Positions 15,727 to 49,236 of a stretch of 64,000 nucleotides of DNA are shown here, piece after piece (position 1 is the first letter of the stretch; each line of letters starts with the position of its first letter). The notes beneath the pieces are model-generated. The model did no database searches. It was not told the DNA's origin and saw nothing but the letters and a program-made list of their open reading frames with translations. Both the position numbers and the translations under genes were made by a program. The DNA is from Streptomyces sp. NBC_01268 (GTDB lineage Bacteria; Actinomycetota; Actinomycetes; Streptomycetales; Streptomycetaceae), in contig NZ_CP108454.1 of NCBI RefSeq assembly GCF_036240795.1, positions 7,066,001 through 7,130,000 on the forward strand. The letters run 5' to 3'.

Positions 15727-15774
15727 CTAGGGGCCCACCGCGGTTCAGGTCCACGGTTCGCCCAGGAGGTCCGA

Positions 15775-23449: not shown

Positions 23450-23480
23450 CTCTTCCACTCCTTCCGGCCGGGCGGCGAAA

Positions 23481-24194: not shown

Positions 24195-24196
24195 GA

Positions 24197-24712: not shown

Positions 24713-24740
24713 GGCGTGTCCCTTCACGGCTCGGCAGCCC

Positions 24741-25052
24741 TCAGCCGCCGTGCCGGTCGATCATGCCCCGGCTGTATCTCCGGATGCGTTCGTAGGAGAT
24801 CAGGTCGCCGGCCTCGTCCAGCTCGACGCGGTAGCTGCCCATGACGCTGGTGGTGTCGGGGATGCGTTCGAGCTCCACCACCTCCACCACCGCCTCCCAG
24901 CCGTCCTCTGTGGGCTTCAGCGACGACACCGCCTCAGGGCGCCTGCCGAGCAGTTCGGAGAGCTGATCGGCGGCGGCCCGCAGTGCGGCGGCCGCGCCGC
25001 CCTGGGGCCGACGCGGGCGGCGCCGGCGGCGCTCTGGCTCCGGTCCGGTCAT
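24741..25052 (-). CDS. gvpO: Gas vesicle protein GvpO
   Basis: 103 residues, first gene of the operon, with GAGGG before ATG 25052. A basic arginine-rich start ([14 protein letters not shown]) precedes the GvpO domain: [40 protein letters not shown], then [20 protein letters not shown]. GvpO is a small protein present in actinobacterial and haloarchaeal gvp clusters and is probably regulatory or an assembly factor. gvpA follows after 28 bp. Confidence 0.92.
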
Positions 25053-30083: not shown

Positions 30084-30325
30084 GAGCGGCGAGCGTAGTT
30101 CGCCGGACCCTCCCGATCATCCCCGCTTCCGATAGTTCGTCACTGTCCCTGGCGCGAGAAGTCCCCCCGCTGGCGCGCTCGGACCTCGGCTTGGTCACAC
30201 ACGGCCATCTAGCGTCGCGTTCGGTGCCGGGGCGGGGGACCGGAGGGGCGAGGAGGCGGCGGCCTGTTCGCCGCTCCGGCCTTCGCCCCGGCACGTGAGA
30301 CATGTCCATGGGGAGGGATCTCGTA

Positions 30326-33300: not shown

Positions 33301-36300
33301 CACGGTGGGCGCCAACAAGCTGGCCCGCCCGAAGCTGGTCATCGCCCCGACCTCCGCTGCCTCGGCCACGACGTGCACGGCGACGCCGTCCACGAAGGGC
33401 TGCCGCGCGCTGGAGTTCGTCTACGCGACCGCGACGACGGCGACCGGCACGGTCTTCGGCGACTTCGCGGGCCAGGTGAAGGAGATCCGGGCCTGGTCCA
33501 CCGAGCCGGGTGCCGCCGCGGCGACCGCCAAGACGGTGCAGAAGTACGCGTACGACGCCTCGGGCCGCCTGCGGGAGACCTACAACCCGCAGATCAGCCC
33601 CGCGCTGACCACCGCCTACAGCTACGACTCCGTCGGTCGTGTCACCGGGCTGACCCCGCCCGGCGAGCTGCCCTGGTCGTTCACCTACGGCAAGGCGGGC
33701 AACGCCGCCACCGCCGGTGAGGGAATGCTGACGAAGGCCAGCCGCTTCGGTCTGCAGCAGGGCAGCAAGGACGTCGTGTCCGGCACCGCGGCGACGAGCA
33801 TCGTCTACGACGTGCCGCTGACCGGGACCAACGCCCCCTACAAGCTGGGCGTCTCGGACGTCGACGCCTGGGGCCAGACCGACGCCCCCACCGACGCGAC
33901 CGCCGTCTTCCCCGCGGACGCCGTTCCCGCGGCGAACTCCGGCGACGGACTGACCGCCGGTGACTACCGCCGTGCGTCGATCACGTACACCAACGCCTCC
34001 GGGCGCGAGGTGAACACGGTCGACCCGGGCGGCAACGTCACCACCACGGAGTACGACCGGTTCGGCAACACGGTGCGTGAGCTTTCGGCCGGCAACCGGG
34101 CTCTGGCTCTGGGCGGCACCGCGTCCGATCAGGCGACCCTCACCGATCTCGGCATCATCGGCCTGCCCGCCAAGGACCGTGCCGACCTGCTCTCCAGCAA
34201 GTCCGTCTACGACGCCAAGGGCATCCGCAAGGAGCAGGAGTTCGGCGCGCTGCACCGGATCACCCCGAGCGGCGGTGCCGCGTCGGTGGTGGCGCGTTCC
34301 TGGCTGGTCAACGAGTACGACGCCGGCCGACCGGCCGACGCCAAGGTCGAGAACCAGATCACCAAGGTCACCACCGGCGCCCAGGTGTACGGCACCGTGG
34401 CGATGACCGACGCCCGCGTCACCCAGACGCTCTACGACTGGGCCAAGGGCCTGCCGGTCAAGACGGTCAAGGACCCGGCCGGTCTCGCGATCACCGAGAC
34501 CACCGAGTACGACGACCAGGGCCGCATCACCAAGCAGCTCCTGCCCGACGCCACCGGCACCGACGCCGCCACCCGGGTCACCACCTACTGGTCCGCGAGC
34601 GGCACCGGCACCTGCGCCGGCCGCCCCGAGTGGGCCGACCAGGTCTGCTCCACCGGCCCGGCCGGCGCGATCACCGGCGGCGGCAGCAACCCGAACCAGC
34701 TGCCGACGACCACCACCGAGTACGACTGGTGGGGCAACCCGGCGAAGGTCACCGAGACCGCCAACGGCGTCACCCGCACCACCACCAACACCCACGACGG
34801 CGCCGGCCGCCCGATCAAGAGCGTCATGACCGGCGGAGTCGGCCAGGCCGTCCCTGAGACGACGACCGAGTACGACCCGGCGACCGGCCAGGCCGTCAAG
34901 GCGACGTCGCCGACCGGCGGCACCACCGTCAAGGAGTACGACAAGCTGGGCCGCCAGATCTCCTACACCGACGCCGACGGCGGGGTCACCCGCACCGAGT
35001 ACGACCTGCTGAACCGGCCGGTCAAGACCACCGACTCGACTCCGTCGACCGTCACGTACACGTACGACAGCACCGCCGAGCCTCGTGGCCTGGTCACCTC
35101 CACCACGGACTCGGTCGCCGGAACCTTCGCCGCCACGTACGACGCCGACGGCTCCGTCGCCACCGAGAAGCTCCCCGGCGGTTACACGCTCACGACCTCC
35201 GAGGACACCACCGGCGCCACCAGGACCCGGGTCTACACCCGCGACAGCGACAAGCAGGTCGTCTACTCCGACACGGTCGAGGAATCCGTCCACGGCCAGG
35301 TGACCGAGCACGCCGGCTGGTCCTCGCAGGACTACGCCTACGACGCCACGGGCCGTCTGACCGATGTCGACGACACCCTCGGGGACATCTGCACCAGCCG
35401 GACCTACGCCTTCGACAAGCGCACCCGCCGCACCGGGCTGACCACCGCGTCCGGCAGCGCCGGCGCCGGGTGCCCGACCACCGGAGGAACCAGCACCACC
35501 TCCACGTACGACAGCGCCGACCGGATCGTCGACACCGGCTACGTCTACGACGCCTTCGGCCGGACCACCGACATGCCGGGCAGCCAGATCGGCTACTACG
35601 CCAACGACCTGGTCCGCCAGCAGACCAGCGGCAACCAGCGTCAGACCTGGCAGCTCGACGCCAACCAGCGTCTGCGCTCCTGGACCGTCGAGGAGAACAC
35701 GGACGGCACCTGGGCCCAGACAGCGGCCAAGGTCAACCACTACGACAGCGACGGCGACAACCCTCGCTGGACCGTGGAGGACCCGGCGGACGGCACCCTC
35801 ACCCGTAACGTCGACTCGGCTTCCGGCGACCTCGCCGCCACCACCAGTGGCAACGGGAACACCGTCCTGCAGCTGACCAGCATCCACGGCGACGTCGCCC
35901 TCCAGCTCCCGCTGGACAGCAACGACGCCCCGCTGGTCCTGGACAACGACGAGTACGGCAACCCCCGCACCGGCCAGCCCGCTGTGCGCTACAACTGGCT
36001 CGGTGCCAAGCAGCGCTCCAGCGAGACCCTCACCGGCCTCGTGCTCATGGGCGTCCGCCTGTACAACCCGAGCACCGGTCGCTTCCTGTCCACCGACCCG
36101 GTGTACGGCGGCAACGCCCATGCCTACGACTACGTCAACGGCGACCCGCTCAACCGCTACGACCTCGACGGTCGCTGGGGCTGGTTCAAGAAGAAGTGGA
36201 AGCGGGCGAAGGGGTGGTGGGGCCGGACGACCCGCAACCCGCATGTCCGCCACTACTACTACGGAGTCCGATTCATCGGCAGCTTCTACAACCCGCTGCG

Positions 36301-36550
36301 GAAGTACCGCACCATCAGGCGCTGGGCTTCCAACCCCAGGCGTGCCTGGCGCACGTGCTCCCGGGGCTGGAGGGCAGCCGCAGGGTGTGGGGCGCTTGCA
36401 TGGGGTGGCGGCTCCGGCCTCTACTACGGACGCAAGTACTGGCAGAACTACCGCTATCTGCGGGAGTACAGCCAGGCGCTCACGTACCAGCGCAAGGAAG
36501 AGATCTGCCGTCAGTACACCGGATACCGTGGTGGAAGCAGCTGCCGATGA
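30326..36550 (+). CDS. Large RHS/YD-repeat protein, candidate polymorphic toxin
   Basis: 2074 residues from GTG 30326, chosen because GGAGGG lies 8 bp upstream; ATG 30302 lacks a ribosome site. An N-terminal hydrophobic export segment (ALPGIALSVSGLMAFEAAVV) is followed by a DNRLRE-type domain (about residues 370-520: RSFLTFPMTGISGKQILGAK) and a fibronectin-like region. From about 1065 onward come YD repeats (YAYDASGRL, YSYDSVGRVTGL, TEYDRFGNTVRE, TEYDDQGRITKQ). The RHS core ends at LYNPSTGRFLSTDPVYGGNA with DPLNRYDLDG, after which a 125-residue tail (1950-2074) begins. RHS shells enclose and self-cleave toxin tails. This tail is rich in Trp, Tyr and Arg, matches no toxin family I know, and is the likely variable effector. 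Confidence 0.9.
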   Translation: MSERVDLPDRWGRGSRWLRRGALPGIALSVSGLMAFEAAVVVATTGQAVALASQEAAAERPAYATEAADLPSARVAARLSGKRVEAKSERTESSTTWANPDGTVTTDSASGPVRFRDGADGQWRDIDVELTKQDGVIAAKGHPLGLRLGGKTPAAQAAKVRASGAAGEAGTAEVPLVTLAAGEGRELGLSWRGVLPEPKLSGTTARYVDALTATDLIIESTRTGFEQFLELKNRSAVEANGSVTLTLNAKGVKARANADRSVTFVDAKTGKQVGLLPAPVMWDATVDAKSGEHTRRADVGLKVTQRGSRVDLTLTPDAKFLADPATKYPVTVDPAVNIGASFDTFVQQGYTTDMSTSTELKLGNNGSGQIARSFLTFPMTGISGKQILGAKLNLFNSHSWSCTPSSWEVWDTPHATTASRWTAQPNWNTKWATSTATKGFSSACADGWVSQDIKNLAVAWAANGNSTNSMGIRATTESDPNSWKRFNSGNAASNTPYMSVTYNTIPVAGNPMTATPGRTNAGKNWVTTTTPDLSYAASDAETYFLRQKWEIWEGTTNLEVYDTGTEDPVLGKTVSHQVLPGKLVNGKTYWYKGRIYDGSSWSNWTPSVYFTVDTTKPNASSVASTDFPANTWSGSPDANGNFSGSFTLTPPATDVAAVEYKLDSGAWAEATTTGAAVAKTLTFPAGKHTVTVRSKDPAGNVSAEASHVFYAGSGAALLTPGQGERPARRVGLSAEGLTSYTGVTYQYRRGETDAWKDVPVADVRQGSNTVPGWPVALTNGKPAGLTWNITDTLAEDGPIEVRAAFATGSTPVYSPGNDITVDRNAGTAPSEEAGPGSVNLLTGDYGLSATDTSMFGLSVSRTASSRRPDAGSKQDGQAAIFGPQWTSGTAADLTESDWTYLKKSTATSVALVDIDGEELGFTATSGGGWKPEPGSEDLTLTGSLTGSFTLKDTEGTVTVFTKADPAATSWQVASSTVDGLTQSTTTVISEAVTVGANKLARPKLVIAPTSAASATTCTATPSTKGCRALEFVYATATTATGTVFGDFAGQVKEIRAWSTEPGAAAATAKTVQKYAYDASGRLRETYNPQISPALTTAYSYDSVGRVTGLTPPGELPWSFTYGKAGNAATAGEGMLTKASRFGLQQGSKDVVSGTAATSIVYDVPLTGTNAPYKLGVSDVDAWGQTDAPTDATAVFPADAVPAANSGDGLTAGDYRRASITYTNASGREVNTVDPGGNVTTTEYDRFGNTVRELSAGNRALALGGTASDQATLTDLGIIGLPAKDRADLLSSKSVYDAKGIRKEQEFGALHRITPSGGAASVVARSWLVNEYDAGRPADAKVENQITKVTTGAQVYGTVAMTDARVTQTLYDWAKGLPVKTVKDPAGLAITETTEYDDQGRITKQLLPDATGTDAATRVTTYWSASGTGTCAGRPEWADQVCSTGPAGAITGGGSNPNQLPTTTTEYDWWGNPAKVTETANGVTRTTTNTHDGAGRPIKSVMTGGVGQAVPETTTEYDPATGQAVKATSPTGGTTVKEYDKLGRQISYTDADGGVTRTEYDLLNRPVKTTDSTPSTVTYTYDSTAEPRGLVTSTTDSVAGTFAATYDADGSVATEKLPGGYTLTTSEDTTGATRTRVYTRDSDKQVVYSDTVEESVHGQVTEHAGWSSQDYAYDATGRLTDVDDTLGDICTSRTYAFDKRTRRTGLTTASGSAGAGCPTTGGTSTTSTYDSADRIVDTGYVYDAFGRTTDMPGSQIGYYANDLVRQQTSGNQRQTWQLDANQRLRSWTVEENTDGTWAQTAAKVNHYDSDGDNPRWTVEDPADGTLTRNVDSASGDLAATTSGNGNTVLQLTSIHGDVALQLPLDSNDAPLVLDNDEYGNPRTGQPAVRYNWLGAKQRSSETLTGLVLMGVRLYNPSTGRFLSTDPVYGGNAHAYDYVNGDPLNRYDLDGRWGWFKKKWKRAKGWWGRTTRNPHVRHYYYGVRFIGSFYNPLRKYRTIRRWASNPRRAWRTCSRGWRAAAGCGALAWGGGSGLYYGRKYWQNYRYLREYSQALTYQRKEEICRQYTGYRGGSSCR

Positions 36551-36784: not shown

Positions 36785-38179
36785 CTACTCCGGAGATACC
36801 CGTTCGGCCGCCGCACCCCCGGTGCGCCCCTCCACCCGCATCCGCATCCGCCCGCAGGCGAGCGAGAACAGCGGCGTCGGCGTGACGGCGGCGTCGGAGA
36901 GGGGCCGCAGGCGCCAGCGGCCGGTGAGGGTGGCCAGGGCGATGGTCATCTCCGTCCACGCGAAGCCCTCGCCCAGGCAGCCGTGCTGGCCGAGCCCGAA
37001 GGGGAGGAAGGCCTCGGGCGTCACCTCCGACGTGTGTTCGGGGAGCCAGCGGTCGGGGAGGAAGCGCTCCGGTCGGGGGAAGAGGCGCGGGTCGCGGTGG
37101 AGGGAGTACGGGGAGAACAGGACCGTGGTGCCGGCCGGGACCGCGTACGGGCCGAGCGCCGTGTCCCGGACGGACGCCCGGGAGAGCAGGTAGCCGGACG
37201 GGTACAGCCGCAGGGTCTCCGTGAGCACGCGCCGGGTGTACGGGAGGTGCGGCAGGTCGTCGAAGCCGGCGGCCCGGCCGGCCAGCACCGCGTCCACCTC
37301 CGCGTGGAGGCGCTCCTCGGCCTCGGGGTGACGGGCCAGCAGGTACAGGCACCAGGCGAGGGTGCGGGAGGTCGTCTCGGTGCCCGCGGTCAGGAGGGTC
37401 ATCACCTCGTCGTGGACCTGCCCGTCGGACATCCGCTCGCCGGTCTCGGCGTCGGTCGTCCCCAGCAGCCAGGTCAGCACGTCGTCCGGGGCCTCCGCGC
37501 CCAGGCCGTGCCGGTGCGCGATGACGGCGTCCACCAGGGTGTGCAGGGTGCGCGAGCCGCGGGCGAAGCGCCGGTTGACCCGGGTGGGCAGCTTCGCCAG
37601 GAACGGCAGCGGGTCCGAGCCGCGCGCGCCGACCCACGCCATGACGTCCGTCATGGCCTCGACGACGGACGTGGCGTCCTGCCCGGTGATGCCCTGGGTG
37701 AACAGGCTGCGGACCACGATGGAGGAGGCGAGGTTTCCGAACTCCTCGTCCATCGCCACCACTCGGCCCTCGTGCAGCCCCTCCGTCCAGGTGCGGGACA
37801 GGTCGGTCATGAGCTCCGCGTAGTGGCGCACCCGGGCGTGCCGGAACGCCGGCCGGATGAGGCGGCGCTGGCGGCGGTGGAAGGCCCCCTCGGACAGCAA
37901 CAGGCCCCGGCCGGTGACCTGTTCCATCAGCCGGTACTGGGGACTGGGGCCGAAGTCGTCCGCCCGCTGCACCAGGAGTTCGCGCACCAGGTGGTGGTCG
38001 GTCGCCATCAGCATCCGCTGCGGCCCCAGGCGGAGGGCGACCAGACCCGCGTCGAGGCGCTGGACCTCCTCCAGCAGGTCGAGCCGCCGCCGCTGCATCG
38101 CCACGGCGTGGCCCAGCAGCGGCAGTCCGCCCGGAGCCTGGTGCGGAATCAGCGGGCGGGGCGGTGCGGGGAGGCTCAT
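36785..38179 (-). CDS. Cytochrome P450 of the terpenoid cluster
   Basis: 464 residues from ATG 38179, which overlaps the stop of the terpene cyclase gene (ATGA). P450 landmarks: oxygen-binding I-helix LLTAGTETTSRTLAW, K-helix ETLRLYPSGY (ExxR), the PERF-type meander RPERFLPDRWLP, and heme loop FLPFGLGQHGCLGEGFAWTE with the Cys ligand at about residue 401. The hydrophobic profile suggests a soluble bacterial enzyme of the long (CYP102/CYP4-like) type. Translational coupling to the cyclase argues that it oxidises the cyclised terpene. The redox partner is not encoded nearby. Confidence 0.95.
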   Translation of the reverse strand: MSLPAPPRPLIPHQAPGGLPLLGHAVAMQRRRLDLLEEVQRLDAGLVALRLGPQRMLMATDHHLVRELLVQRADDFGPSPQYRLMEQVTGRGLLLSEGAFHRRQRRLIRPAFRHARVRHYAELMTDLSRTWTEGLHEGRVVAMDEEFGNLASSIVVRSLFTQGITGQDATSVVEAMTDVMAWVGARGSDPLPFLAKLPTRVNRRFARGSRTLHTLVDAVIAHRHGLGAEAPDDVLTWLLGTTDAETGERMSDGQVHDEVMTLLTAGTETTSRTLAWCLYLLARHPEAEERLHAEVDAVLAGRAAGFDDLPHLPYTRRVLTETLRLYPSGYLLSRASVRDTALGPYAVPAGTTVLFSPYSLHRDPRLFPRPERFLPDRWLPEHTSEVTPEAFLPFGLGQHGCLGEGFAWTEMTIALATLTGRWRLRPLSDAAVTPTPLFSLACGRMRMRVEGRTGGAAAERVSPE

Positions 38180-39765
38180 CGGGCGCCTTCCCGCGCGCCC
38201 GGTACGGCCGTGGCGCGCACTCCCGGGACGGCCGTGGCATGCGACAACGCCAGCAGGACGAAGACGTCCGCCAGGGCCGGCACGTCGTACAGCAGGGGCC
38301 TCGGCCCCGCCTGGTCGGGGCGGCTGCGGTAGCCGCCGTCGGGGCGCTGGCGGGAGATCAGGTAGGCGAGCGCCCGGTGGAGCGTGGGGCCGTCGCGGAG
38401 GGGCCCGGCGGACGCCAGGGCGATGACGGCGTACGCCGTGCTGATCGGGTCGCTCGGCTCGGCTTCGGCATGGCCCCAGCCGCCGTCCGCGTGCTGGGTG
38501 GCCGCGAGGTGGGCGAGCGACCGCTCGGCCGCGCGCGCCCGCGCCCCGTGCTCCTCCCCGTACGCGTCGACGCCGTTCAGCGCCAGCACCGCGCGGAACA
38601 CCGCGTTCGTCGCGTTGCGGCTCCAACTGCGCTCGAACGTCCCGTCGGACCGCTGGTTCCGTACGACGTAGCGCACGGCCTCGGCCACCACGTCCCGCCG
38701 GTCGGGATTGGGGGCCAGCGCGCTCGCCGCGGCGGCGGTCATCGCGATCTCGGAGCTGGTGCCGCGGGCGAAGGTGGGGAACCCGCCGTCGGGATTGCGG
38801 ACCTCCAGCAGATAGCGCTCCGCCTCGGCGACGGCCGCCCGGTGCCGGACGGGCGCGGCGCGGCGGAGGAACTCCAGGACGTAGCAGGTGTCGTCGACGT
38901 CGCTCTGCGCCACGCCGGAGTGGAAGCCGTAACCGCCGTCCGGATTGCGGCGCAGCGCGAGGGCGTCGGCCATCGGCGTCACGCACGGCGGGGGCGCGGG
39001 CAGCAGGGACAGGGCGAGACCGGCGGCCGCGGTCGTGAAGACGGCCATGCCGTCGATGAACGGCACGCCGCCGTCCGGGCGCAGCCGGCCGGCGACGTGC
39101 TTGAGGACGTCGCCGAGCGCCGGGCGACGGCGCGGCGAGTGGCGCAGTGCGAGCAGTGCGAGCAACTGCGCCAGGTTGTTGCGCTCCCACGCGGGACCGG
39201 GTTCGAGAGCGGGCAGCAACGCGTCCCAGTCCGCCTCGCGTACGACCTCGGCGCGCCCGGTGCCATGCGCGGCGAGCACCTTCAGCGCCTTCATCTCCAT
39301 GTGCAGCCAGCTCTGTTGGGGCTGCGCGTCGTACGCCTCCCAGGGGACGTCGGGGAACGCGGTCGCGCCGAGCGCGGCGAGCACCGTCCCGAACATCAGC
39401 CGCTTGCGGCCGGCGGTGAAGTGGTCGAAGCCGTCGAGTCCGGCGTCGAGCGCCGCGCCCGCGTCGCCGTCCCGGCCGAGGACCGCCCGCGCGACGGCGC
39501 GCTGGAAGGGGTCGGGCGGACTGGTGCGCAGCGTCGTGCGGAGGTACGCGGTGAGGCGGGCGGTCGCGTCCTCCTCGGCCCGCTCCGCCGTCAACAGGGC
39601 GAGGGCCAGGGCGGATTCCAGGACCCGGCTCTCGCACGGGGCGGGCAGCAGGCCGTCGGGGCCGACCCCGGCGACGACCCGCCGGGCCAGCAGGGTCCGG
39701 CAGCGGAGGGCGGCGGGGGTGACTTCCGTGGGCCTGGTGGCGGTGGACGTCGGTGATGCGGTCAC
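38176..39765 (-). CDS. Class II terpene cyclase (squalene-hopene-cyclase-like, DXDD motif)
   Basis: 529 residues from GTG 39765 (GAGAAGGA upstream). The protein is built of alpha/alpha-barrel repeats with QW-type motifs (NPDGGYGFHSG, NPDGGFPTFARG, QRSDGTFERSW, QHADGGWGHAE, QRPDGGYRSRP). The catalytic acid motif D-V-D-D is at residues 289-292 in QSDVDDTCYVLEF. There is no class I DDxxD motif. At about 530 residues it matches bacterial class II cyclases that protonate a prenyl diphosphate (drimenyl- or copalyl-diphosphate-type synthases) rather than squalene cyclases (~650). Expected product: a bicyclic prenyl diphosphate. Substrate chain length cannot be read from the sequence. It is the first gene of a two-gene arm with the P450. 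Confidence 0.85.
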   Translation of the reverse strand: MTASPTSTATRPTEVTPAALRCRTLLARRVVAGVGPDGLLPAPCESRVLESALALALLTAERAEEDATARLTAYLRTTLRTSPPDPFQRAVARAVLGRDGDAGAALDAGLDGFDHFTAGRKRLMFGTVLAALGATAFPDVPWEAYDAQPQQSWLHMEMKALKVLAAHGTGRAEVVREADWDALLPALEPGPAWERNNLAQLLALLALRHSPRRRPALGDVLKHVAGRLRPDGGVPFIDGMAVFTTAAAGLALSLLPAPPPCVTPMADALALRRNPDGGYGFHSGVAQSDVDDTCYVLEFLRRAAPVRHRAAVAEAERYLLEVRNPDGGFPTFARGTSSEIAMTAAAASALAPNPDRRDVVAEAVRYVVRNQRSDGTFERSWSRNATNAVFRAVLALNGVDAYGEEHGARARAAERSLAHLAATQHADGGWGHAEAEPSDPISTAYAVIALASAGPLRDGPTLHRALAYLISRQRPDGGYRSRPDQAGPRPLLYDVPALADVFVLLALSHATAVPGVRATAVPGAREGAR

Positions 39766-39786
39766 GGTGTCCTTCTCACGTCGGAC

Positions 39787-39827
39787 GGGTGGTGGTGGGG
39801 GGTGGGGGAGTGTGGGGAGGCGGTGGG
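39787..39827 (+). other. G-rich tract, G-quadruplex candidate
   Basis: Between the cyclase start and the Nudix gene stop, the plus strand has five runs of three or more G within 41 bases: 39787-39789, 39797-39802, 39804-39808, 39814-39817 and 39825-39827. Short loops separate them, so four-stranded folding is possible on this strand. It lies upstream of the cyclase gene, in its promoter or leader. Confidence 0.6.
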
Positions 39828-39861
39828 TGAGGAGAAGGCGCGGGGGCTCGGAAGCCGGCCT

Positions 39862-40371
39862 TCAGGGGGACGTCAACGGGACGCCCCGGGCCAGTAGTTG
39901 GGCCAGGACCCGACGGCCCTCCGGGACGAACGGCGTCGGCGGGTGGTCGAGGAGCTCGGCCGGCGGGGCGAAGAAGTGCTCCGCGATCTCGCGCGGGTCG
40001 ACGTTCGACGGCTCCGGGACCTCCGCCACGTGGACGGCCAGCCAGCAGCGTCCGACGGGGGACGGGCGCGGCTGGTGGAGCGCCAGGCGCGGTGCGGCCA
40101 CGACGCCCAGCTCCTCGCGCAGTTCGCGGGCCGCGGCCTCCGCGTAGCCCTCGCCGGCCCGGGGGCAGCCGCCGATCAGGATGTCGTGGTGGTCCGGGTA
40201 GACCGCGGCCCAGGCCGGGCGGCGGTAGACCAGGAGGCGGCCTGCGGCGTCCGTGCAGACGGTCGCGGCCACCCGGTAGTACAGGCCCCGGGCCGCGGCC
40301 CCGCCGCGTGGTCCGCGCGTCACGGGACGGTCGTCCGCGTCGACGTAGTCCACGGTTTCGTGCGCCGTCAC
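39862..40371 (-). CDS. Nudix hydrolase of the terpenoid cluster
   Basis: 169 residues from GTG 40371, with GGAGG 6-10 bp upstream. The Nudix box is intact: G-x5-E-x7-REL-x-EE-x-G-V in GCPRAGEGYAEAAARELREE followed by LGV. The surrounding fold (YYRVAATVCTDAAGRLLVYR) resembles IDI-like Nudix enzymes that act on small diphosphates. Within a class II cyclase cluster an attractive role is removal of phosphate from the cyclised diphosphate, or control of prenyl diphosphate supply. A general house-cleaning role cannot be excluded. It is upstream of the cyclase on the same strand, 96 bp apart. Confidence 0.88.
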   Translation of the reverse strand: MTAHETVDYVDADDRPVTRGPRGGAAARGLYYRVAATVCTDAAGRLLVYRRPAWAAVYPDHHDILIGGCPRAGEGYAEAAARELREELGVVAAPRLALHQPRPSPVGRCWLAVHVAEVPEPSNVDPREIAEHFFAPPAELLDHPPTPFVPEGRRVLAQLLARGVPLTSP

Positions 40372-40513
40372 GCCGCCCCTCCAGTGCCGGTGATCGTTCC
40401 GGCGGCGAACACTACCGTATGTGATCAAGTGAGTTCGCACGGTAATATCCGCCGGGTTCGAACCGCGGTGCCGCGCGTGCGGCACCGGCCCGGCCGCACG
40501 ATCCAGGAGCGCC
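40372..40513. promoter_or_regulatory. Divergent control region of the terpenoid/acyl cluster
   Basis: 142 bp between the Nudix and acyl-carrier genes, with an AT-richer core. It contains two interleaved inverted repeats: GCGAAC (40405-40410) with GTTCGC (40433-40438), and TACCGT (40413-40418) with ACGGTA (40439-40444). A possible plus-strand -10, TAATAT, lies at 40443-40448. The arms are 20-22 bp apart, as for a dimeric regulator spanning two helical turns. No regulator gene is present in the cluster itself. Confidence 0.45.
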
Positions 40514-40759
40514 ATGACCTTCGACGAGCTCAAGAGCACCCTCATCGGCATGGGAATGCCACCGGAGCAGTTGAACCCGGACGCCCTGCGCGACGAGGCG
40601 GGCCTCGACTCGCTGTTCGCGGCCGAACTCGCCCTGATCCTGCGCCAGGAGAAGGGCATCAGGATCCCCGAGAAGGAGATCCTCGCCGCGGCGACGCTCG
40701 CCGACGTGGCCGCGGCCGTGGCGCACCGCGCGGGTGCGGGAGCGGGGGCGGAGCGGTGA
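40514..40759 (+). CDS. Acyl carrier protein
   Basis: 81 residues, with AGGAGCG upstream of ATG 40514. The phosphopantetheine site is Ser33 in AGLDSLFAAELALILRQEKG, a slightly divergent D-S-L motif. The remaining helices (IRIPEKEILAAATLADVAAA) follow the ACP fold. It overlaps the ketosynthase gene by 4 bp (GTGA, 40756-40759). A dedicated carrier protein implies an acyl chain built or held outside primary fatty-acid synthesis. Confidence 0.92.
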   Translation: MTFDELKSTLIGMGMPPEQLNPDALRDEAGLDSLFAAELALILRQEKGIRIPEKEILAAATLADVAAAVAHRAGAGAGAER

Positions 40760-41958
40760 CGGACGCCGCCATCACCGGTGTCGGGCTGCTGACGCCCGCG
40801 GGGGACGGCCGGGCGGAGAGCTGGCGCCGGGTGTGCGCGGGCGAGCCCGCGGCGGCCCTCCACCGGAGCCCGCACGGCACGTTCGTGGTGGGCCGGGTGC
40901 CGGAGTTCGACGCCGGGCGGCTGGGCGAGGCCCGCCGCTGGAAGCCCGACCGGGCCGGGCAGTTCGCCCTGCTGGCCGCGCGGGAGGCGCTGGACGACGC
41001 GGGCCTCGACCCGGCGGAGTGGGACGGCGACCGGGTCGCCGTCCTCGTCGGCTCCGGGACGGCCGGCGCGGAGACGTACGAGCACTACCTGCCGCTGCTG
41101 GACACCGCGCCCGAGGACGTCCCGCCGTTGGCGCTGCCCAGCAGTCTCGCCAACTCGCCCGCCGCGCTGGTGTCGATGGCCTTCGGCGCGCGCGGCACCA
41201 GCGCGGTCGTCAACACCGCCTGCGCCTCCGGGGCGACCGCCCTGGCCGTCGCGTGCGACATGCTGGCGCTCGGACGCTGCGACGTCGTCCTCGTCGGGGG
41301 CACGGAGGCCGGCCTCACCCCGTACCACCTGCGCGGCTTCGACCGGCTGGGCGCCCTGTCCCGCCGGTACGAGGACCCGCTGGGCGCCTCCCGCCCGTTC
41401 GACGCGCAGCGGGACGGCTTCCTCATCGCCGAGGGGGCCGGATTCCTCGTCCTGGAGCGGCCGGAGCACGCCGCCGCCCGGGGTGCCAGGGTCAGGGCGC
41501 GGATCGTCGGGCACGGGTCCGCCTCCGACGCGCACCACGCCGTCGCACCGCACCCGCGGGGCACCGGCATCGCCGCCGCCGTGGACGACGCGCTGCGCGA
41601 CGCCGGTCTGCAGCGGCGCGACATCCAGCACGTCAACGCGCACGGCACCAGTACACCCCGCGGTGATGCGATCGAAAGCGCCGCGCTGGCCCGCGCGTTC
41701 ACCCATCGGCCCTCCGTCACGTCCACCAAGGGGGTCACCGGGCATCTGATGGGGGCGGCCGGAGCGGTGGAGGCCGCGCTCACCACGCTCTCCCTCCAGA
41801 AGGGCGTCGTCCCGCCGACCGCCAACCTCACCACGCCCGGCCCGGGCATCGAGGTCGACGTGTCCGGCACCCGCCGCACCGCGCGCATCGACGCCGCGCT
41901 GTCGCTGTCGGTCGGTTTCGGCGGCCACAACGTGGCCCTCGTCCTCGCCGCCGCGTGA
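40756..41958 (+). CDS. Beta-ketoacyl-ACP synthase (KAS II / FabF-like)
   Basis: 400 residues from GTG 40756. The thiolase-fold condensing enzyme is complete: nucleophile Cys156 in VVNTACASGATALAVA, His296 in VNAHGTSTPRGDAIE and His330 in TKGVTGHLMGAAGAVE, with the C-terminal GFGGHNVALVL. An intact Cys-His-His triad means it should condense rather than act as a chain-length factor. No ketoreductase, dehydratase or enoylreductase is in the cluster, so full reduction would need enzymes of primary metabolism. Coupled by 4-bp overlaps to the ACP before it and the acyltransferase after it. Confidence 0.94.
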   Translation: MTDAAITGVGLLTPAGDGRAESWRRVCAGEPAAALHRSPHGTFVVGRVPEFDAGRLGEARRWKPDRAGQFALLAAREALDDAGLDPAEWDGDRVAVLVGSGTAGAETYEHYLPLLDTAPEDVPPLALPSSLANSPAALVSMAFGARGTSAVVNTACASGATALAVACDMLALGRCDVVLVGGTEAGLTPYHLRGFDRLGALSRRYEDPLGASRPFDAQRDGFLIAEGAGFLVLERPEHAAARGARVRARIVGHGSASDAHHAVAPHPRGTGIAAAVDDALRDAGLQRRDIQHVNAHGTSTPRGDAIESAALARAFTHRPSVTSTKGVTGHLMGAAGAVEAALTTLSLQKGVVPPTANLTTPGPGIEVDVSGTRRTARIDAALSLSVGFGGHNVALVLAAA

Positions 41959-43187
41959 CCGCCCGCACCGGCGCGACGAGCGCCCGCATCCCCGCCCCGC
42001 GCGGCGGTGTTCCCGCGCTGCCCCGGGTCGCGCTGTCCGACCGGGACCGCGTCACCCTCGAACTGGCCCGCCACGGCGGCGACATGATCCTCGGCGCCGT
42101 GCTGCTCCTGGACGGGCCGCCGCCCGCGACCGGCGAGCTGGCGGACCACCTGCGCGCGCGGATCCGGGACGTGCCGGAGCTGACGTACCGCCCGTACGGG
42201 CTGACGGGCAAGCGCCCGTACTGGGCCCAGGACCCGGAGTTCGACATCGCCCGGCACGTGTACGAGGCCGAGCGGCCCGAGGGTCCCGCCGGGGCCGCCG
42301 ACGCCGCCCTGGCGGCCGTCCTCGACCGGCCGCTCCCCGAGGACCGGCCGCTCTGGGGGGTGTGGCTGGTCAGGCCGCGCGAGCCCGGGGCGGAGGGGTA
42401 CGCGCTCTGCTACCGCGTCCACCACGCCTTCCAGGACGGCCTCGCCGCGATGGCCGCCGTCGAGGCGCTGTTCGGACCGGCGCCGGGGACCGCCCCCGTG
42501 CCGCTCGCCGCCGAAGCCCCCGAGGACGCGGCTGCGCCGGCGGCCCCCGGCCCGGGGAGGGTCGTCACCGCCCGCCTCGACACCGCCGTCCTGTTCCGGG
42601 CCGCCCGCGCCGCCGGGGTCTCGCTGCACCAGCTGTGCCTCGCCCTGGCGACCGCCACGGCCCGGCAGTGGCCGTCGCTCGCCGGGACCACGCCGCTCCG
42701 GGCCAACCTCGGCATCAGCCTCCGGCCGCCCGCGACACCCGTCCGCCCGATCGGCAACCAGGTCGGCGTACTGAGCGTCGAACTCCCCGTCGACGAGCCC
42801 GATCCGCTCGCGCGGCTGCGGCGGCTGGCCCAGGGAGTGCCGGGGGAACGGCTGGTCGGCCGCGCGCGCCGGGCGCACCGGCTCCGCGCGCGCTGGCCCG
42901 TCCTCGACCGGCTCGCCCTGCGCCGCGCCATCGACCCGCGCACGGCGGCACTGAGCGTCGCCGACGTCCGGCTCCGGCGAGCCCTGGAGTTCGCCGGAAC
43001 GCCCGTGCGCCACGTGTACCCGATCCCGGTGCTCGTGCCGGGCCAGCGCCTCTTCATCGCGTGGACGTCCTACCGGGGGCAGCTGCACGTCAGCTTCCGC
43101 ACCGACCGGCCGACGCCGGAGCTCGACCTGCTGCCGCGGCTGTGGCGGTCCGCCGTCGACGACCTGCGGCGCGCCCTCGACAGCTGA
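41955..43187 (+). CDS. WS/DGAT-type wax ester synthase / acyltransferase
   Basis: 410 residues from GTG 41955, overlapping the ketosynthase stop. The catalytic motif HHxxxDG is present as HHAFQDG at residues 156-162. The N-terminal part (GAVLLLDGPPPATGELADHL, YWAQDPEFDIARHVYEAERP) and the C-terminal part (PIPVLVPGQRLFIAWTSYRG) follow the WS/DGAT pattern. Length is a little below the usual 450-470. These enzymes esterify an alcohol or diacylglycerol with an acyl thioester. In this cluster the alcohol could be a dephosphorylated or hydroxylated terpenoid and the donor the acyl-ACP; that is inference. Confidence 0.88.
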   Translation: MTARTGATSARIPAPRGGVPALPRVALSDRDRVTLELARHGGDMILGAVLLLDGPPPATGELADHLRARIRDVPELTYRPYGLTGKRPYWAQDPEFDIARHVYEAERPEGPAGAADAALAAVLDRPLPEDRPLWGVWLVRPREPGAEGYALCYRVHHAFQDGLAAMAAVEALFGPAPGTAPVPLAAEAPEDAAAPAAPGPGRVVTARLDTAVLFRAARAAGVSLHQLCLALATATARQWPSLAGTTPLRANLGISLRPPATPVRPIGNQVGVLSVELPVDEPDPLARLRRLAQGVPGERLVGRARRAHRLRARWPVLDRLALRRAIDPRTAALSVADVRLRRALEFAGTPVRHVYPIPVLVPGQRLFIAWTSYRGQLHVSFRTDRPTPELDLLPRLWRSAVDDLRRALDS

Positions 43188-43238
43188 CCGGCGGGGTGCC
43201 CGTGGGGCACGCCGCACCAGGAAACCAGTAAGGAAGCC

Positions 43239-44564
43239 ATGTCCCCCTCCGCGCACGTGTCCACCGACGTGTCCGCCGCCCCCGTTCCCGGCCCCGGCTC
43301 GCCGCCCACCCCACCCCCGGCCGCGGGCGGCGTCGTCGAGCTCCTGCGGGAGGCCGCGCAGGCCGGGCCGCTGACCGCCCTCCGCATCGGCGAGCGGCCC
43401 TTCGTCCTGGCGACGGGCCCCGACCAGACGCAGGAGATCCTGGCCAAGCGCCCGGAGGTCTACGTCAAGCACGGGCACCGCGCCCGTCCCCTTCTGGGTG
43501 ACGGACTCATCTCCGCCTCGGGTGACGCCTGGAAGCGCCAGCGCAAGCTGCTCCAGGGCCGGTTCACCGTCGCCGGGACCCGGCGCTGGGCCCACCACAT
43601 CACGGCGGCGGCCGAGCGGATCGCGGCCCGCTGGGAGGCGGCCGCCGGTGCCGGCGGGCAGGTCGACATCGGGCGGGACATGCGTTTCTTCGCACTCGAC
43701 ACCATCTGGCGCACCCTGACCGGCACCCCCCTCGACGAGACGACCGAGCGCGAACTGGAGGCCGTCGACACGGTGGTCGCCTCCCTGCCCACGCTCGCCG
43801 GCGCCCGGCCCGACCCCGCGCTCGCCGTCGACGAGGCACTGGCGCAGATCGACACCACCGCCCACCGCGTCATCGGCCTGGCCCGTGCCCGGCGCGCCGA
43901 CGCGCGGCCCGGCGGCCCGCCGCACCTCCTCGACCTGCTCCTGGACACCGCCGAGACCCGGCCCGAGTACACCGACGGGCTCATCCGCGACGAACTCGTG
44001 ACGCTGCTCGTCGCGGGACACGAGACGACCGCCCAGACCCTGTGCTGGCTCTTCGTCCTCCTCGACCGGCACCCCCACGTCCACGACCGGTTCCTCACCG
44101 CGTACGCGGCGGCCGACGGGCCCGCCGCCCGCGACACCCTGCTGGGCGCCCTCGTCCAGGAGACCCTCCGGCTCTACCCGGCCGTCTGGCTCGTCCCCCG
44201 GCACGCGGCCCGCGACGACGTCCTCGACGGCCTGCCGATCGACGCCGGCACCAGCGTCCTGGCCTGCCCGTACCTCACCCACCGCATCCCGGAGCTCTGG
44301 CCCGACCCGGAGCGCTTCGACCCCGCCCGCTTCCTCCCGGGCGGGCACCGCCCCCACCACCCGGCCGCGTTCCAGCCCTTCGGCGTCGGGGCGCGCGCCT
44401 GCCTCGGGCAGCACTTCGCGCTCCAGGAGATGCTCACCCTGCTGCGGCTCCTGCTCCCCGCCCACCGGCCACGGCTCACCACCCCGCCCCGGGGCGCCGT
44501 CTTCGGCGCCAACCTGCGGCCCGACGGACCCGTACGGGGGACCCTCACCGCGGTCCGGGCGTAG
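43239..44564 (+). CDS. Cytochrome P450, second of the cluster
   Basis: 441 residues, ATG 43239, 51 bp after the acyltransferase. I-helix VTLLVAGHETTAQTLCWLF, ExxR in VQETLRLYPAVWL, PERF region DPERFDPARFLPGG, heme loop FQPFGVGARACLGQHFALQE with Cys388. A Pro-rich N-terminus (VPGPGSPPTPPPAAG) precedes the fold. Like the first P450, it is a bacterial enzyme related to fatty-acid/terpene hydroxylases. Its place after the ketosynthase and acyltransferase genes allows a role on either the acyl chain or the terpenoid. Confidence 0.95.
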   Translation: MSPSAHVSTDVSAAPVPGPGSPPTPPPAAGGVVELLREAAQAGPLTALRIGERPFVLATGPDQTQEILAKRPEVYVKHGHRARPLLGDGLISASGDAWKRQRKLLQGRFTVAGTRRWAHHITAAAERIAARWEAAAGAGGQVDIGRDMRFFALDTIWRTLTGTPLDETTERELEAVDTVVASLPTLAGARPDPALAVDEALAQIDTTAHRVIGLARARRADARPGGPPHLLDLLLDTAETRPEYTDGLIRDELVTLLVAGHETTAQTLCWLFVLLDRHPHVHDRFLTAYAAADGPAARDTLLGALVQETLRLYPAVWLVPRHAARDDVLDGLPIDAGTSVLACPYLTHRIPELWPDPERFDPARFLPGGHRPHHPAAFQPFGVGARACLGQHFALQEMLTLLRLLLPAHRPRLTTPPRGAVFGANLRPDGPVRGTLTAVRA

Positions 44565-45309: not shown

Positions 45310-45328
45310 TTTTCCGTGCACCGGAAAA
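45310..45328. promoter_or_regulatory. Inverted repeat upstream of the ABC exporter (possible operator)
   Basis: TTTTCCG (45310-45316), 5-bp centre, CGGAAAA (45322-45328). A perfect 7-bp dyad with A/T-rich ends is rare in this GC-rich DNA. It sits 75 bp before the exporter start and 16 bp after the preceding stop. Either an operator or a weak terminator; the A/T outer ends favour protein binding. Confidence 0.45.
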
Positions 45329-45402
45329 CCCTTGGACGGCGAAGGGGCCCGCGCGGAACACTCCCCATCCTGTCCCGTCAGGTCCGACAAAGCAGGGTTG
45401 GT

Positions 45403-47250
45403 ATGGGTACGTCTGAATCACCCGGAGGTCCGCCAGCGCAGGCGCCCGAGGGTCCGTCCGCCAGGGGCCCGGTGCTCCTCGCACTTCGCTTCTACACGAA
45501 AGAGCTGGTCAGGCTGAGACGTCTGACCGTGCCCGCCCTGCTGCTCCCGGCGCTGGGCAACATCGGCATCTACTACGTCGCGCCCCTGCTCGTCGCGAAG
45601 CTGGTCGGCCGGCTCGCCGGGGGCTCCGGTGGCGGGCCGGGTCCCGTGCTGCCCTACGTCCTGGGCTTCGCCGGCGTGCTGCTGCTCGCCGAGACGCTGT
45701 GGCGCCTCGGGCTGCACTGTCTGAACCGCCTCGACGCCCTCGGCATCGAGCAGCTGTACGTCCTCGGCATGGACGAGCTGTTCGCCAAGGACTCCGCCTT
45801 CTTCCACGACAACTTCGCGGGGTCGCTCACCAAGCGGGTGCTGAGCTTCGCCTCCCGCTTCGAGGAGTTCGTCGACACCCTCACCTTCTCGGTCTTCGGC
45901 AGCTTCGTGCCGCTGCTCTTCGCCTCGGTGGTGCTGTGGACGTACGAGCCGCTGCTCGTCGTCGGACTCCTGGTGATGATCACCCTCACGGGTGTCGTCG
46001 TACGGCCGCTCATCCGCCGCCGCCAGGTCCTGGTCCGGCACCGGGAGGAGGCGATCGCCCGGGTGTCGGGGCACGTCGCCGACAGCCTGATGAACATGGA
46101 CACGGTGCGGGCCTTCGCCGCCGAGGGGCGCGAGGCCGCCGAGCACCGGTCCCGCGTCGCCGAGTCGCGCCGGCTCACCCTGCGCTCCTGGGACTTCGGC
46201 AACCTGCGCATCGACACGCTCGTCGCACCGCTGTCGGTGCTGACCAACGTGCTCGGGCTGGTGCTCGCCCTGTCGCTCGGCGCCGGCGACCACGGTGTGG
46301 AGGCGCTCGTCGTCGCCTTCACGTACTACTCCAACGCGACGCGGATCATGTTCGAGTTCAACCAGATCTACCGCCGCCTGGAAAGCTCGATGACGGAGGC
46401 CGCGCAGTTCACCGAGTTGCTCCTGGTCCCGTCGACCGTGCGCGACCCGGAGGTCCCGGAGCCGCTCCGCTCCCGGGACGCCGACGTGCGCTTCGAGCGG
46501 GTCACCTTCGCCCACGCGGGTGGCGACCCGCTCTTCCAGGGGCTCGACCTCGACGTGCCGGGCGGGGCGAAGATCGGGCTCGTCGGGCGGTCCGGGGGCG
46601 GCAAGACCACGCTCACCCGGCTGCTGCTGCGGATGACCGACATCGACGCCGGGCGGATCCTCGTCGGCGGCCAGGACATCAGCCGCATGCGCCAGTCCGA
46701 CCTGCGCGGCCTGATGGCGTACGTGCCGCAGGACCCGGCGATGTTCCACCGCACCCTGCGGGACAACATCGCCTTCGCCCGGCCGGACGCCACCGAGGCC
46801 GAGATCCGGCGGGCCGCCGAGGCCGCGCACGTCACGGAGTTCGCCGACGCGCTGCCGGACGGCTTCGACACCATGGTGGGCGAGCGCGGGGTGAAGCTCT
46901 CCGGCGGGCAGCGCCAGCGGGTCGCCCTCGCCCGCGCGATCCTGCGGGACGCGCCGATCCTGCTCCTCGACGAGGCGACCAGCGCGCTGGACTCGGAGAG
47001 CGAGGTCCTCGTCCAGGACGCCCTGTGGAGCCTGATGGAGGGGCGTACGGCCTTCGTGGTGGCCCACCGGCTCAGCACGGTCGCGCACATGGACCGGCTC
47101 GTCGTCCTGGACCGCGGCCGGATCGTCGAGCAGGGCTCGCACCACGAGCTCCTCGCGGCGGACGGCTCCTACGCCAAGCTGTGGCAGCACCAGTCGGGCG
47201 GTTTCCTGGAGGAGCCGCCAGAGCCGGCGGAGCGGACGGGGGTGCGCTGA
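45403..47250 (+). CDS. ABC exporter, fused membrane and ATPase domains
   Basis: 615 residues from ATG 45403. The N-terminal half is a type I exporter membrane domain of six helices (LTVPALLLPALGNIGIYYVA through PLSVLTNVLGLVLALSLGAG). The C-terminal half has Walker A GRSGGGKTTLTRL, Q-loop AYVPQDPAMF, signature LSGGQRQRVALARA, Walker B ILLLDEATSALDS and the H-loop VAHRLST. It should work as a homodimer, or with a partner not seen here. Lipid, peptide or natural-product export are all possible. Closeness to the terpenoid/acyl cluster makes product export plausible but unproven. Confidence 0.93.
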   Translation: MGTSESPGGPPAQAPEGPSARGPVLLALRFYTKELVRLRRLTVPALLLPALGNIGIYYVAPLLVAKLVGRLAGGSGGGPGPVLPYVLGFAGVLLLAETLWRLGLHCLNRLDALGIEQLYVLGMDELFAKDSAFFHDNFAGSLTKRVLSFASRFEEFVDTLTFSVFGSFVPLLFASVVLWTYEPLLVVGLLVMITLTGVVVRPLIRRRQVLVRHREEAIARVSGHVADSLMNMDTVRAFAAEGREAAEHRSRVAESRRLTLRSWDFGNLRIDTLVAPLSVLTNVLGLVLALSLGAGDHGVEALVVAFTYYSNATRIMFEFNQIYRRLESSMTEAAQFTELLLVPSTVRDPEVPEPLRSRDADVRFERVTFAHAGGDPLFQGLDLDVPGGAKIGLVGRSGGGKTTLTRLLLRMTDIDAGRILVGGQDISRMRQSDLRGLMAYVPQDPAMFHRTLRDNIAFARPDATEAEIRRAAEAAHVTEFADALPDGFDTMVGERGVKLSGGQRQRVALARAILRDAPILLLDEATSALDSESEVLVQDALWSLMEGRTAFVVAHRLSTVAHMDRLVVLDRGRIVEQGSHHELLAADGSYAKLWQHQSGGFLEEPPEPAERTGVR

Positions 47251-47352: not shown

Positions 47353-48405
47353 GTGGTCACCCCGCAGCCCGTCCTCGCCCCTCCCTCGAAGGCCGCCGTG
47401 TACCTCGTGGCCACCGTGAACCCCGGCGGCGAGGCCGTGGCACGGGACGCGCTCGCGGGCCTCGCCGGGCTGGTCCGCACCGTGGGCTTCCGCGAGCCCG
47501 AGGGGGCGCTCAGTTGCGTGCTCGGGATCGGTGCCACGGCCTGGGGCCGCCTCTTCGACGGGCCCGTCCCGCGTGAGCTGCACCCCTTCGTCCCCCTGGA
47601 GGGGCTCCGGCACCGCGCCCCCGCCACACCCGGGGACCTGCTCTTCCACGTACGCGCCCAGCGCATGGACCTCTGCTTCGAGCTGGCCCGGCTGATCGCA
47701 CGGAGCCTCGCGGGCGCCGCGACCGTCGTCGACGAGGTGCACGGCTTCCGCTACTTCGACGAGCGCGACCTGTTGGGCTTCGTCGACGGCAGCGAGAACC
47801 CCGAGGGCCAAGTGGCGGCCGACGCCGTCTTCGTCGGCGACGAGGACCCCGGGTTCCGGGGCGGCAGCTACGTCATCGTGCAGAAGTACCTGCACGACAT
47901 GACGGCCTGGCAGGGACTCACCGTCGACGAGCAGGAACGCGTCATCGGCCGCCACAAGGCGGACAACGTGGAGCTCGCCGACGACGTCAAGCCGCCGGAC
48001 TCGCACGTCGCGCTCAACACGCTCACCGACGAGGACGGCACCGAGCGGCAGATCCTGCGCGCCAACATGCCCTTCGGGAACGTCGGCAGCGGTGAGTTCG
48101 GCACGTACTTCATCGGCTACGCCCGCACCCCGGCCGTGACCGAGCTGATGCTCTCCCACATGTTCCTGGGCGACCCGCCCGGCACCACCGACCGCATCCT
48201 CGACTTCTCCACGGCCGTGACGGGCTGTCTCTTCCACGTGCCGAGCGCCGACTTCCTCGACGACCTGCCGGACCCGCCGGCCACCACGGCCGCCACGGCC
48301 GCGCCCGCGGTCGGCGCAGTGACCACCGCGACCGCCGGGAGCGCCACCCCCGTCCGTACGCACGGGGCCGGCGGTCTCGGCATCGGCAGCATGAAAGGAG
48401 CGTGA
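47353..48405 (+). CDS. DyP-type peroxidase, encapsulin cargo
   Basis: 350 residues from GTG 47353 (GGGAG upstream). Family marks: GFVDGSENPEGQ (the GxxDG motif with catalytic Asp), GGSYVIVQKYLHDM, DSHVALNTLTDED (proximal heme His) and LRANMPFGNVGSGEFGTYF (distal Arg). DyP enzymes are heme peroxidases acting on dyes, lignin-like phenols and other bulky substrates. After an Ala/Thr-rich linker the protein ends in GGLGIGSMKGA, the cargo-loading peptide type that docks inside family 1 encapsulins. The shell gene starts 6 bp after the stop. Confidence 0.96.
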   Translation: MVTPQPVLAPPSKAAVYLVATVNPGGEAVARDALAGLAGLVRTVGFREPEGALSCVLGIGATAWGRLFDGPVPRELHPFVPLEGLRHRAPATPGDLLFHVRAQRMDLCFELARLIARSLAGAATVVDEVHGFRYFDERDLLGFVDGSENPEGQVAADAVFVGDEDPGFRGGSYVIVQKYLHDMTAWQGLTVDEQERVIGRHKADNVELADDVKPPDSHVALNTLTDEDGTERQILRANMPFGNVGSGEFGTYFIGYARTPAVTELMLSHMFLGDPPGTTDRILDFSTAVTGCLFHVPSADFLDDLPDPPATTAATAAPAVGAVTTATAGSATPVRTHGAGGLGIGSMKGA

Positions 48406-48411
48406 CCTGCC

Positions 48412-49236
48412 ATGACGCCTCCCGGTGACCCGGCCGGCACCACCAACCTGCACCGCGAACTCGCCCCCGTCACCCAGGCCGCCTGGGAACAGATCGAGGA
48501 GGAGGCCCGCCGCACCTTCCGGCGCCATGTCGCGGGCCGCCGCGTCGTCGACGTGCCGGACCCCGGCGGCCTGGGCCTGGCCTCGGTCGGCACCGGACAC
48601 CTCTCCGAGATCGCCCCGCCCGCTCCCGGGGTGACGGCCCGGCTGCGCGAGGCGAAGCCGCTGGTGGAACTGCGCGTGCCGTTCACCGTCAGCAGGGCCG
48701 CCGTGGACGACGTCGAACGCGGCTCCAGCGACTCCGACTGGCAGCCGGTGAAGGACGCGGCGCGTGCCATGGCCTTCGCCGAGGACCGGGCGATCTTCGA
48801 CGGCTACCCGGCGGCGGGCGTCGACGGCCTGCGCGACCGCAGCTCCAACCCGGTGCTCGCGCTGCCCGCCGAGCCGCGCGACTACCCGGACGCCGTCAGC
48901 CGCGCCCTGACCTCCCTGCGACTCGCCGGAGTCGACGGCCCGTACGCACTGCTGCTCGGCGCCGACGACTACCGCGCGGTCAGCGAGACCTCCGACCACG
49001 GCTACCCGATCGCCGCACACCTGGCCCGGATGCTGGACGGCCCGCCGCTGTGGGCGCCGGCGCTGAGCGGCGCGTTCGTCCTGTCCACCCGGGGCGGCGA
49101 CTTCGAGCTGCGGCTCGGCCAGGACGTGGCCATCGGCTACACGTCGCACGACGCCCACGGCGTCGAGCTGTACTTCCAGGAGACGCTCACGTTCCTGACC
49201 TACACGGACGAAGCAGTCGTCGTGCTCAGCCACTGA
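48412..49236 (+). CDS. Family 1 encapsulin shell protein
   Basis: 274 residues from ATG 48412. The HK97-like fold is recognisable from [40 protein letters not shown], the E-loop region [29 protein letters not shown] and the C-terminal [20 protein letters not shown] with [18 protein letters not shown]. It should self-assemble into a protein nanocompartment that packages the DyP peroxidase encoded just upstream. Length is slightly above the ~265 typical of the family. Confidence 0.96.

Follow-up and report, generated by a model that had tools for sequence, protein, structure and literature searches.

A Streptomyces gene cluster predicted to join drimane formation with carrier-protein-dependent acylation

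This study concerns seven genes at positions 36,785 to 44,564 of a 64,000-nucleotide stretch of the genome of Streptomyces sp. NBC_01268 (contig NZ_CP108454.1; "the window" below means this whole stretch). They encode a class II terpene cyclase, a Nudix hydrolase, two cytochrome P450s (P450a and P450b), an acyl carrier protein (ACP), a ketosynthase (KS) and a WS/DGAT-like O-acyltransferase. Patterns detected here and in related genomes make it fairly probable that the seven form one cluster for an acylated, oxidised drimane sesquiterpenoid, an ester made with an acyl group supplied by the cluster's own ACP and KS. The core recurs in 16 loci and its association is therefore more than chance; the gene set behaves as one unit. 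The terpene half is already known from the S. showdoensis enzyme SsDMS and from the cav cluster of S. clavuligerus, and the acyl half is the new part. The initial annotation of this DNA had proposed a single pathway whose product is an oxidised and acylated ester of a bicyclic terpenoid, and both the co-occurrence of the genes in other genomes and the grouping of the cyclase support this in part, with the terpene ester itself still a prediction. The seven genes, the motifs (DxDD, Cys-His-His and HHxxxDG) and the GTGA overlaps that it listed were all confirmed in the sequence.

Identity of the terpene and acyl genes

Over nearly its whole length the window cyclase matched PDB entries 7xq4 and 8zg1 (phmmer, E ≤ 1e-270), the former of which we take to be the S. 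showdoensis enzyme SsDMS, and it shared 86% identity with the cyclase that genome G310 encodes at locus L033. The L033 cyclase aligns over its full length to 8zg1 with two residues differing, one of them within the DxDD motif, and these two were presumably engineered in 8zg1. Because its acyltransferase was identical at 414 of 414 residues to a protein named S. showdoensis and its cyclase matches 8zg1, L033 is taken as the SsDMS locus, and it holds all seven genes of the window. In a tree built from 21 cyclases of the clade, with a single distant outgroup, SsDMS (L033) was the sister of the window cyclase with support 1.0, and CavC of S. clavuligerus fell in the same clade (0.966). A squalene-hopene cyclase was ruled out, in keeping with the initial annotation, since the scores were far under the cut-offs (54.1 against 431.1 bits for TIGR01507, 70.2 against 322.7 for TIGR01787). 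On sequence comparison the window cyclase is a drimenyl-diphosphate synthase orthologue, with formation of that product from farnesyl diphosphate (FPP) predicted. The scaffold first described as drimane- or labdane-like can be narrowed to drimane (C15, from FPP), and a labdane is unlikely. The DxDD motif is kept in the cyclases of all 16 loci that hold the full set.

The cav cluster makes hydroxydrimenols with the class II drimenyl-diphosphate synthase CavC, the Nudix hydrolase CavB and the P450 CavA; CavC forms drimenol in E. coli and CavA hydroxylates the A ring (PMC11035983). As in cav, a P450, a Nudix gene and a class II cyclase gene stand side by side in the window, and identities to the cav proteins were 52% for the cyclase, 56% for the Nudix hydrolase and 48% for P450b. 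The counterpart of P450b is the P450 adjoining the Nudix gene of the cav locus (L032), which we name CavA because of gene order, the record being without annotation there. The cav locus differs in that no ACP, KS or WS/DGAT match was found in the 25 kb of it examined, and in having a class I cyclase, CavF, of which none was found in the window region. Neither a class I cyclase nor a prenyl-diphosphate synthase was found by Pfam in 38 window open reading frame (ORF) entries (the main high-GC3 ORFs), as the initial annotation had also stated.

Every one of the 16 full-set loci has the Nudix gene in its cluster, the Nudix box is intact in the window and in all 15 others, and the enzyme is expected to dephosphorylate drimenyl diphosphate. 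P450b is a probable drimane A-ring hydroxylase, to judge from its identity to the presumed CavA, and was present in 14 of the 16 loci, L139 and L146 being the two without it. A search run without a positive control found no CavA-like P450 at E 1e-60 elsewhere in G494 and G589, the genomes whose cluster has none. P450a, which is translationally coupled to the cyclase through an ATGA overlap, has the haem loop FGLGQHGCLG; its best PDB match was 3dbg (E 1.6e-72), presumably the albaflavenone P450 CYP170A1, and it matched the NCBIfam albaflavenone and pentalenene P450 models with scores under their cut-offs. A homologue of P450a at 50% identity or more occurred in 8 of the 16 loci, window included, and at least one of the two P450s occurred in every one.

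On the acyl side, GTGA overlaps join ACP to KS and KS to acyltransferase. Active sites are intact in 16 of 16 full-set loci, including the DSL motif of the ACP and the catalytic residues of the KS, of which Cys-His-His is intact in the window. The KS scored 383 bits against a cut-off of 493.75 for the fabF equivalog TIGR03150 and is FabF-like without being filed as the housekeeping FabF. In the KS tree the cluster KSs formed one clade with support 0.997 in which one outsider, from L053, is nested. A type II polyketide synthase was rejected as a candidate, there being no pair of KS and chain-length factor (CLF) but a single KS with no second KS domain among the scanned ORFs. The acyltransferase exceeded the gathering scores of both its Pfam families (23.6 bits for PF03007 and 20.7 for PF06974), and the HH and DG of its HHxxxDG motif were invariant in 26 of 26 sequences. 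The fold is that of wax ester synthases, and the closest in fold, the WS/DGAT wax ester synthases 6chj and 7nxg, share HHxxxDG with it; they differ in that identity was 18–20% over the aligned parts and in that the window enzyme is paired with a dedicated ACP. PapA5 (1q9j), at 17% identity, is not a terpene enzyme. Scoring under the cut-off of the NCBIfam wax ester/triacylglycerol synthase model TIGR02946, the acyltransferase is described as WS/DGAT-like and is not filed as a storage-lipid synthase.

Conservation, rearrangement and loss of the gene set

Presence of genes was taken from tblastn, the ORF caller at times having chosen antisense frames, and the genome search scores the best few candidates per genome, so that distant copies may escape. 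A cyclase match at E ≤ 1e-20 was found in 49 of 392 Streptomyces genomes; 16 of the 49 cyclases, the window's included, had at least 50% identity over most of the protein (over 340 residues in G373), and a 17th genome, G224, held fragments of 41–60% identity. The cyclase neighbourhoods examined first were those of the 15 genomes at or above 50% besides the window and of five at about 40%, and the latter five gave no match at E 1e-5 to Nudix, ACP, KS or acyltransferase. Nudix, cyclase, P450b, ACP, KS and acyltransferase were together in 10 of the 16 Streptomyces genomes. Across all 17, both arms were present in 10, broken remnants in one (G224), ACP and KS without acyltransferase in one (G185) and no acyl arm in five.

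Starting from the acyltransferase, a match at E ≤ 1e-30 occurred in 12 of the 392 Streptomyces genomes, namely the 10 with full-set loci, G370, where it adjoins a distant class II cyclase, and G070, where it lies on a 5.2-kb contig. There were matches in 1 of 14 genomes of genus g46 (E ≤ 1e-20), in 9 of 70 of g57, judged by identical proteins to be Kitasatospora, with at least 44% identity in four, and in 2 of 35 of g50, both weak. Close acyltransferases (E ≤ 1e-35, at least 44% identity) were found in 15 genomes among the 392 Streptomyces, 14 g46 and 70 g57, and all 15 adjoin cyclase, Nudix, ACP and KS; no close relative lying away from the cyclase was found in the genomes searched. The expectation that the two arms would not occur separately in most relatives was thus upheld from both directions. 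The 16th full set, in G455, was reached through its cyclase in a 61-genome family draw and encodes the S. cattleyicolor acyltransferase. The total, window included, is 10 loci from Streptomyces, four from Kitasatospora and two from other genera. A wider draw of 150 relatives gave one weak match more, G425. Eight of 24 close database acyltransferase proteins could be matched to loci of examined context. Ten loci with weak acyltransferase matches (E worse than 1e-35) were also examined: a class II cyclase relative lies no more than 20 kb away in L141, L148, L149 and L154, L142 consists of a 5.2-kb fragment, and no class II cyclase was detected near the match in L150, L151, L152, L153 or L155. 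A contig scan of named genomes covered 80 loci among the matches listed; within these 80 a WS/DGAT match was present at L053 alone and a cyclase match at none, the drimane loci not being among them.

There were four gene orders among the 16 full-set loci. The divergent order of the window is shared with L033 and, minus P450b, with L139 and L146. In L140, L145 and L147 P450b opposes a single run of the other six genes (Nudix, cyclase, P450a, ACP, KS and acyltransferase on one strand), in L144 P450b is placed before the ACP, and in eight other Streptomyces loci the acyltransferase opposes P450b, Nudix, cyclase, ACP and KS. Flanking genes differ between the groups and therefore mark the borders of the cluster. 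Pairwise distances of the five core proteins were correlated (r 0.93–0.97, Mantel p 0.001), and the cyclase and acyltransferase trees shared 11 of 13 splits, the cyclase and KS trees 9, and the short ACP only 5–7 with the others.

Several loci have lost or lack part of the set. In G185 (locus L035) Nudix, P450b, ACP and KS accompany the cyclase, the ACP is degenerate, without DSL, and no acyltransferase lies within 20 kb. Beside the cyclase there is Nudix only in G143 and G015, and Nudix with P450b in G268; in G143 and G268 a single open frame spans the matched cyclase, the cyclase of G375 is split over two frames, and that of G373 matches only residues 178–517. In G224 (L156, 6820–10938, Streptomyces) fragments of cyclase, Nudix, KS and acyltransferase lie with P450b as separate tblastn pieces, and this is a broken remnant of both arms, a cluster breaking down. 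Loci whose acyl arm is missing or incomplete, cav being one, are nested within the clade of full-set loci in the cyclase tree, with support of 0.966 and 0.891 at the cav nodes, 0.999 at the G268 node and values down to 0.52 at others, the tree being rooted on one distant outgroup. Because of this nesting, loss of the acyl arm is the simpler history, and the loci without it, cav included, look like reduced descendants of the full set.

The acyl module also occurs in other company. In a sister family (L141, L154, L157, L158, and L142/L143) a class I terpene synthase and a class II cyclase different from that of the drimane cluster stand with a WS/DGAT enzyme fused to an ACP, and KAS III stands in place of the FabF-type KS. 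In a Kitasatospora locus (L149, 2539–12421), the tblastn matches within 10 kb comprise class II cyclase and class I synthase relatives together with a distant WS/DGAT and a FabF-type KS. A third cluster type, in L053 (8306–14904, Kitasatospora sp. GAS204B) and L161 (6719–14984, G108, Streptomyces), combines an alpha-oxoamine-synthase-like gene, named by eye, with ACP, KS, a distant WS/DGAT (two copies in L161) and a P450. The KS clade of the drimane clusters includes the L053 KS, which would fit re-use of the acyl module without a terpene.

Proposed pathway and alternative explanations

In the proposed pathway, FPP from primary metabolism would be converted to drimenyl diphosphate by the SsDMS orthologue, as precedent from its relatives in the literature suggests, and the Nudix enzyme, from context and literature, would strip the diphosphate to give drimenol. 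One or two P450s would hydroxylate the drimane, P450b probably on the A ring like CavA. The ACP would be charged with an acyl chain, which the dedicated FabF-like KS would elongate or select, while primary fatty-acid synthesis would supply malonyl loading and any reductive steps. The WS/DGAT-like enzyme would then take this acyl group off the ACP and attach it to a drimane hydroxyl. The likeliest acylation site would be the C-11 primary alcohol, because no other hydroxyl is expected from every one of the 16 loci, two of which are without a CavA-like P450. We infer the acyl chain, its site, the dependence on the ACP and the ester itself, and likewise that the product of the acyltransferase is a terpene ester and not some other lipid.

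The initial annotation knew of no described pathway of this kind. This does not hold for the P450-Nudix-cyclase half, described as cav (PMC11035983), while the combination with the acyl half was not found: no paper on a class II cyclase with ACP, KS and WS/DGAT came up in the literature searched, most subscription journals being outside its scope. At the orthologous locus the enzyme SsDMS is itself described (7xq4, 8zg1), passages of PMC12453296 and PMC12365925 refer to the type II cyclase of S. showdoensis, to its binding mode and to the hydrolase clustered with it, and no description of the ACP-KS-acyltransferase half beside SsDMS was found in the papers searched. The fungal calidoustene pathway, with the cyclase-hydrolase DrtB, the P450s DrtC and DrtD and the acyltransferase DrtE (introduction of PMC11035983), resembles the proposed one in joining a drimane, P450 oxidation and an acyltransferase. 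The likeness is one of logic only, and the fungal cyclase is HAD-fused.

Alternatively, the KS could use malonyl-ACP to build a short beta-ketoacyl or polyketide unit as the acyl group, and the product would then be a polyketide-terpene hybrid ester and not a fatty acid ester. The KS does keep all its catalytic residues, and no ketoreductase, dehydratase, enoylreductase or thioesterase, and no reductive enzyme, was seen to be conserved at the loci, the flanks of which are partly annotated. The sister family's use of KAS III is in line with this as well, KAS III and FabF-type KS both giving beta-ketoacyl-ACP. WS/DGAT enzymes are, however, known to act on long acyl chains, the reductive steps could be lent by primary fatty-acid synthesis, and there is no KS/CLF pair of the type II polyketide synthase kind. 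A hybrid ester seems unlikely.

Considerably less probable is a chain-extended meroterpenoid, for which the acyltransferase would take acyl-CoA, while an oxidised terpenoid acid attached to the ACP would be lengthened by the KS and ACP. The two P450s could conceivably oxidise a drimane carbon to the acid, the KS and ACP genes accompany those for the P450s and the cyclase, and the nearest structural relatives of the acyltransferase are presumably CoA-dependent. Against this, no ligase or adenylation enzyme for loading a terpenoid acid on the ACP was seen to be conserved at the loci, and the fusion of acyltransferase and ACP in the sister family points to a role of the ACP in acyl delivery.

Three observations weigh against a single acyl-drimane pathway: the terpene arm can stand alone (cav, G143, G015 and G268), similar KS-ACP pairs are present in L053 and L161 without a class II cyclase match, and the acyltransferase, at 157.1 bits, misses the cut-off of 309.95 of the NCBIfam wax ester/triacylglycerol synthase model TIGR02946. 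The first of these, together with the ACP-KS pairs beside other enzymes (L054 in addition to L053 and L161), would fit an acyl arm that makes a separate lipid, a wax ester or other membrane lipid, and merely accompanies the terpene pathway. This too is given little credence, since no close acyltransferase relative was found away from a cyclase in the genomes searched and the set stays together while gene order is reshuffled. Two unrelated clusters that happen to abut, as the opposite strands in the window might suggest, are rejected, being contradicted by conservation of the core set in 16 loci with four gene orders, differing flanks and correlated protein distances, and by the single-strand arrangement in L140.

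Surrounding genes and implications

Coordinates are collected in Table 1. The ABC exporter that follows P450b has a 91% identical copy in L033, and in the other full-set loci ABC matches were weak, at about 30%, or absent; the exporter is a possible but unproven partner of the cluster. An RHS-repeat protein of 2082 residues (30302–36550) adjoins the cluster on the other side, and L033 has one too. A DyP peroxidase followed by an encapsulin shell protein (47353–49236; PF20628/PF04261 and PF04454), a typical encapsulin cargo pair, also adjoins. Elsewhere in the window there are a Kdp potassium region (2–11605), in which KdpA, a P-type ATPase and a response regulator sit between two KdpD sensor kinases, the first cut by the window edge; a galactose-oxidase-like protein with F5/8 type C domains (15709–18324); and gas vesicle genes (22645–24760) for two PF00741 proteins and a GvpL/GvpF protein.

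Table 1. Features of the cluster and the adjoining exporter, in window positions
Feature	Position	Strand	Evidence
Cytochrome P450a (terpene-P450-like)	36785..38179	-	PF00067 280 bits, matched inside longer ORF 36785-39637
Class II terpene cyclase, SsDMS orthologue (by sequence)	38176..39765	-	DVDD at residues 289-292
Nudix hydrolase	39862..40371	-	PF00293 46.9 bits, matched inside longer ORF 39862-41928; canonical Nudix box
Divergent Nudix/ACP intergenic region, 142 bp, putative bidirectional promoter region	40372..40513	.	Sequence
ACP, 81 aa, motif EAGLDSL	40514..40759	+	PF00550 34.8 bits
FabF-like KS	40756..41958	+	PF00109/PF02801; TACAS / HGTST / KGVTGH
WS/DGAT-like O-acyltransferase, HHAFQDG	41955..43187	+	PF03007 60.8 bits, PF06974 44.0 bits
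Cytochrome P450b	43239..44564	+	PF00067 206 bits
ABC exporter (MsbA-like)	45316..47250	+	PF00005/PF00664

More tentatively, the Streptomycetaceae may possess a carrier-protein-dependent acylation of class II terpene alcohols, in which a WS/DGAT-type transferase works with a dedicated ACP and KS. It would exist in at least two forms, one with a separate ACP and FabF-type KS acting on a drimane and one with a fused ACP and KAS III beside a class II and class I cyclase pair, and the described bacterial hydroxydrimenols would come from a cluster that lost it. Acylated drimanes from one cluster, the reading we favour, predict an overlooked class of bacterial acyl-drimanes and give a candidate role to the genes adjoining the crystallised model enzyme SsDMS. 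If it is true, terpenes can be acylated by a WS/DGAT-type enzyme from donors bound to an ACP, and the cav pathway would be a reduced form of a larger ancestral pathway.

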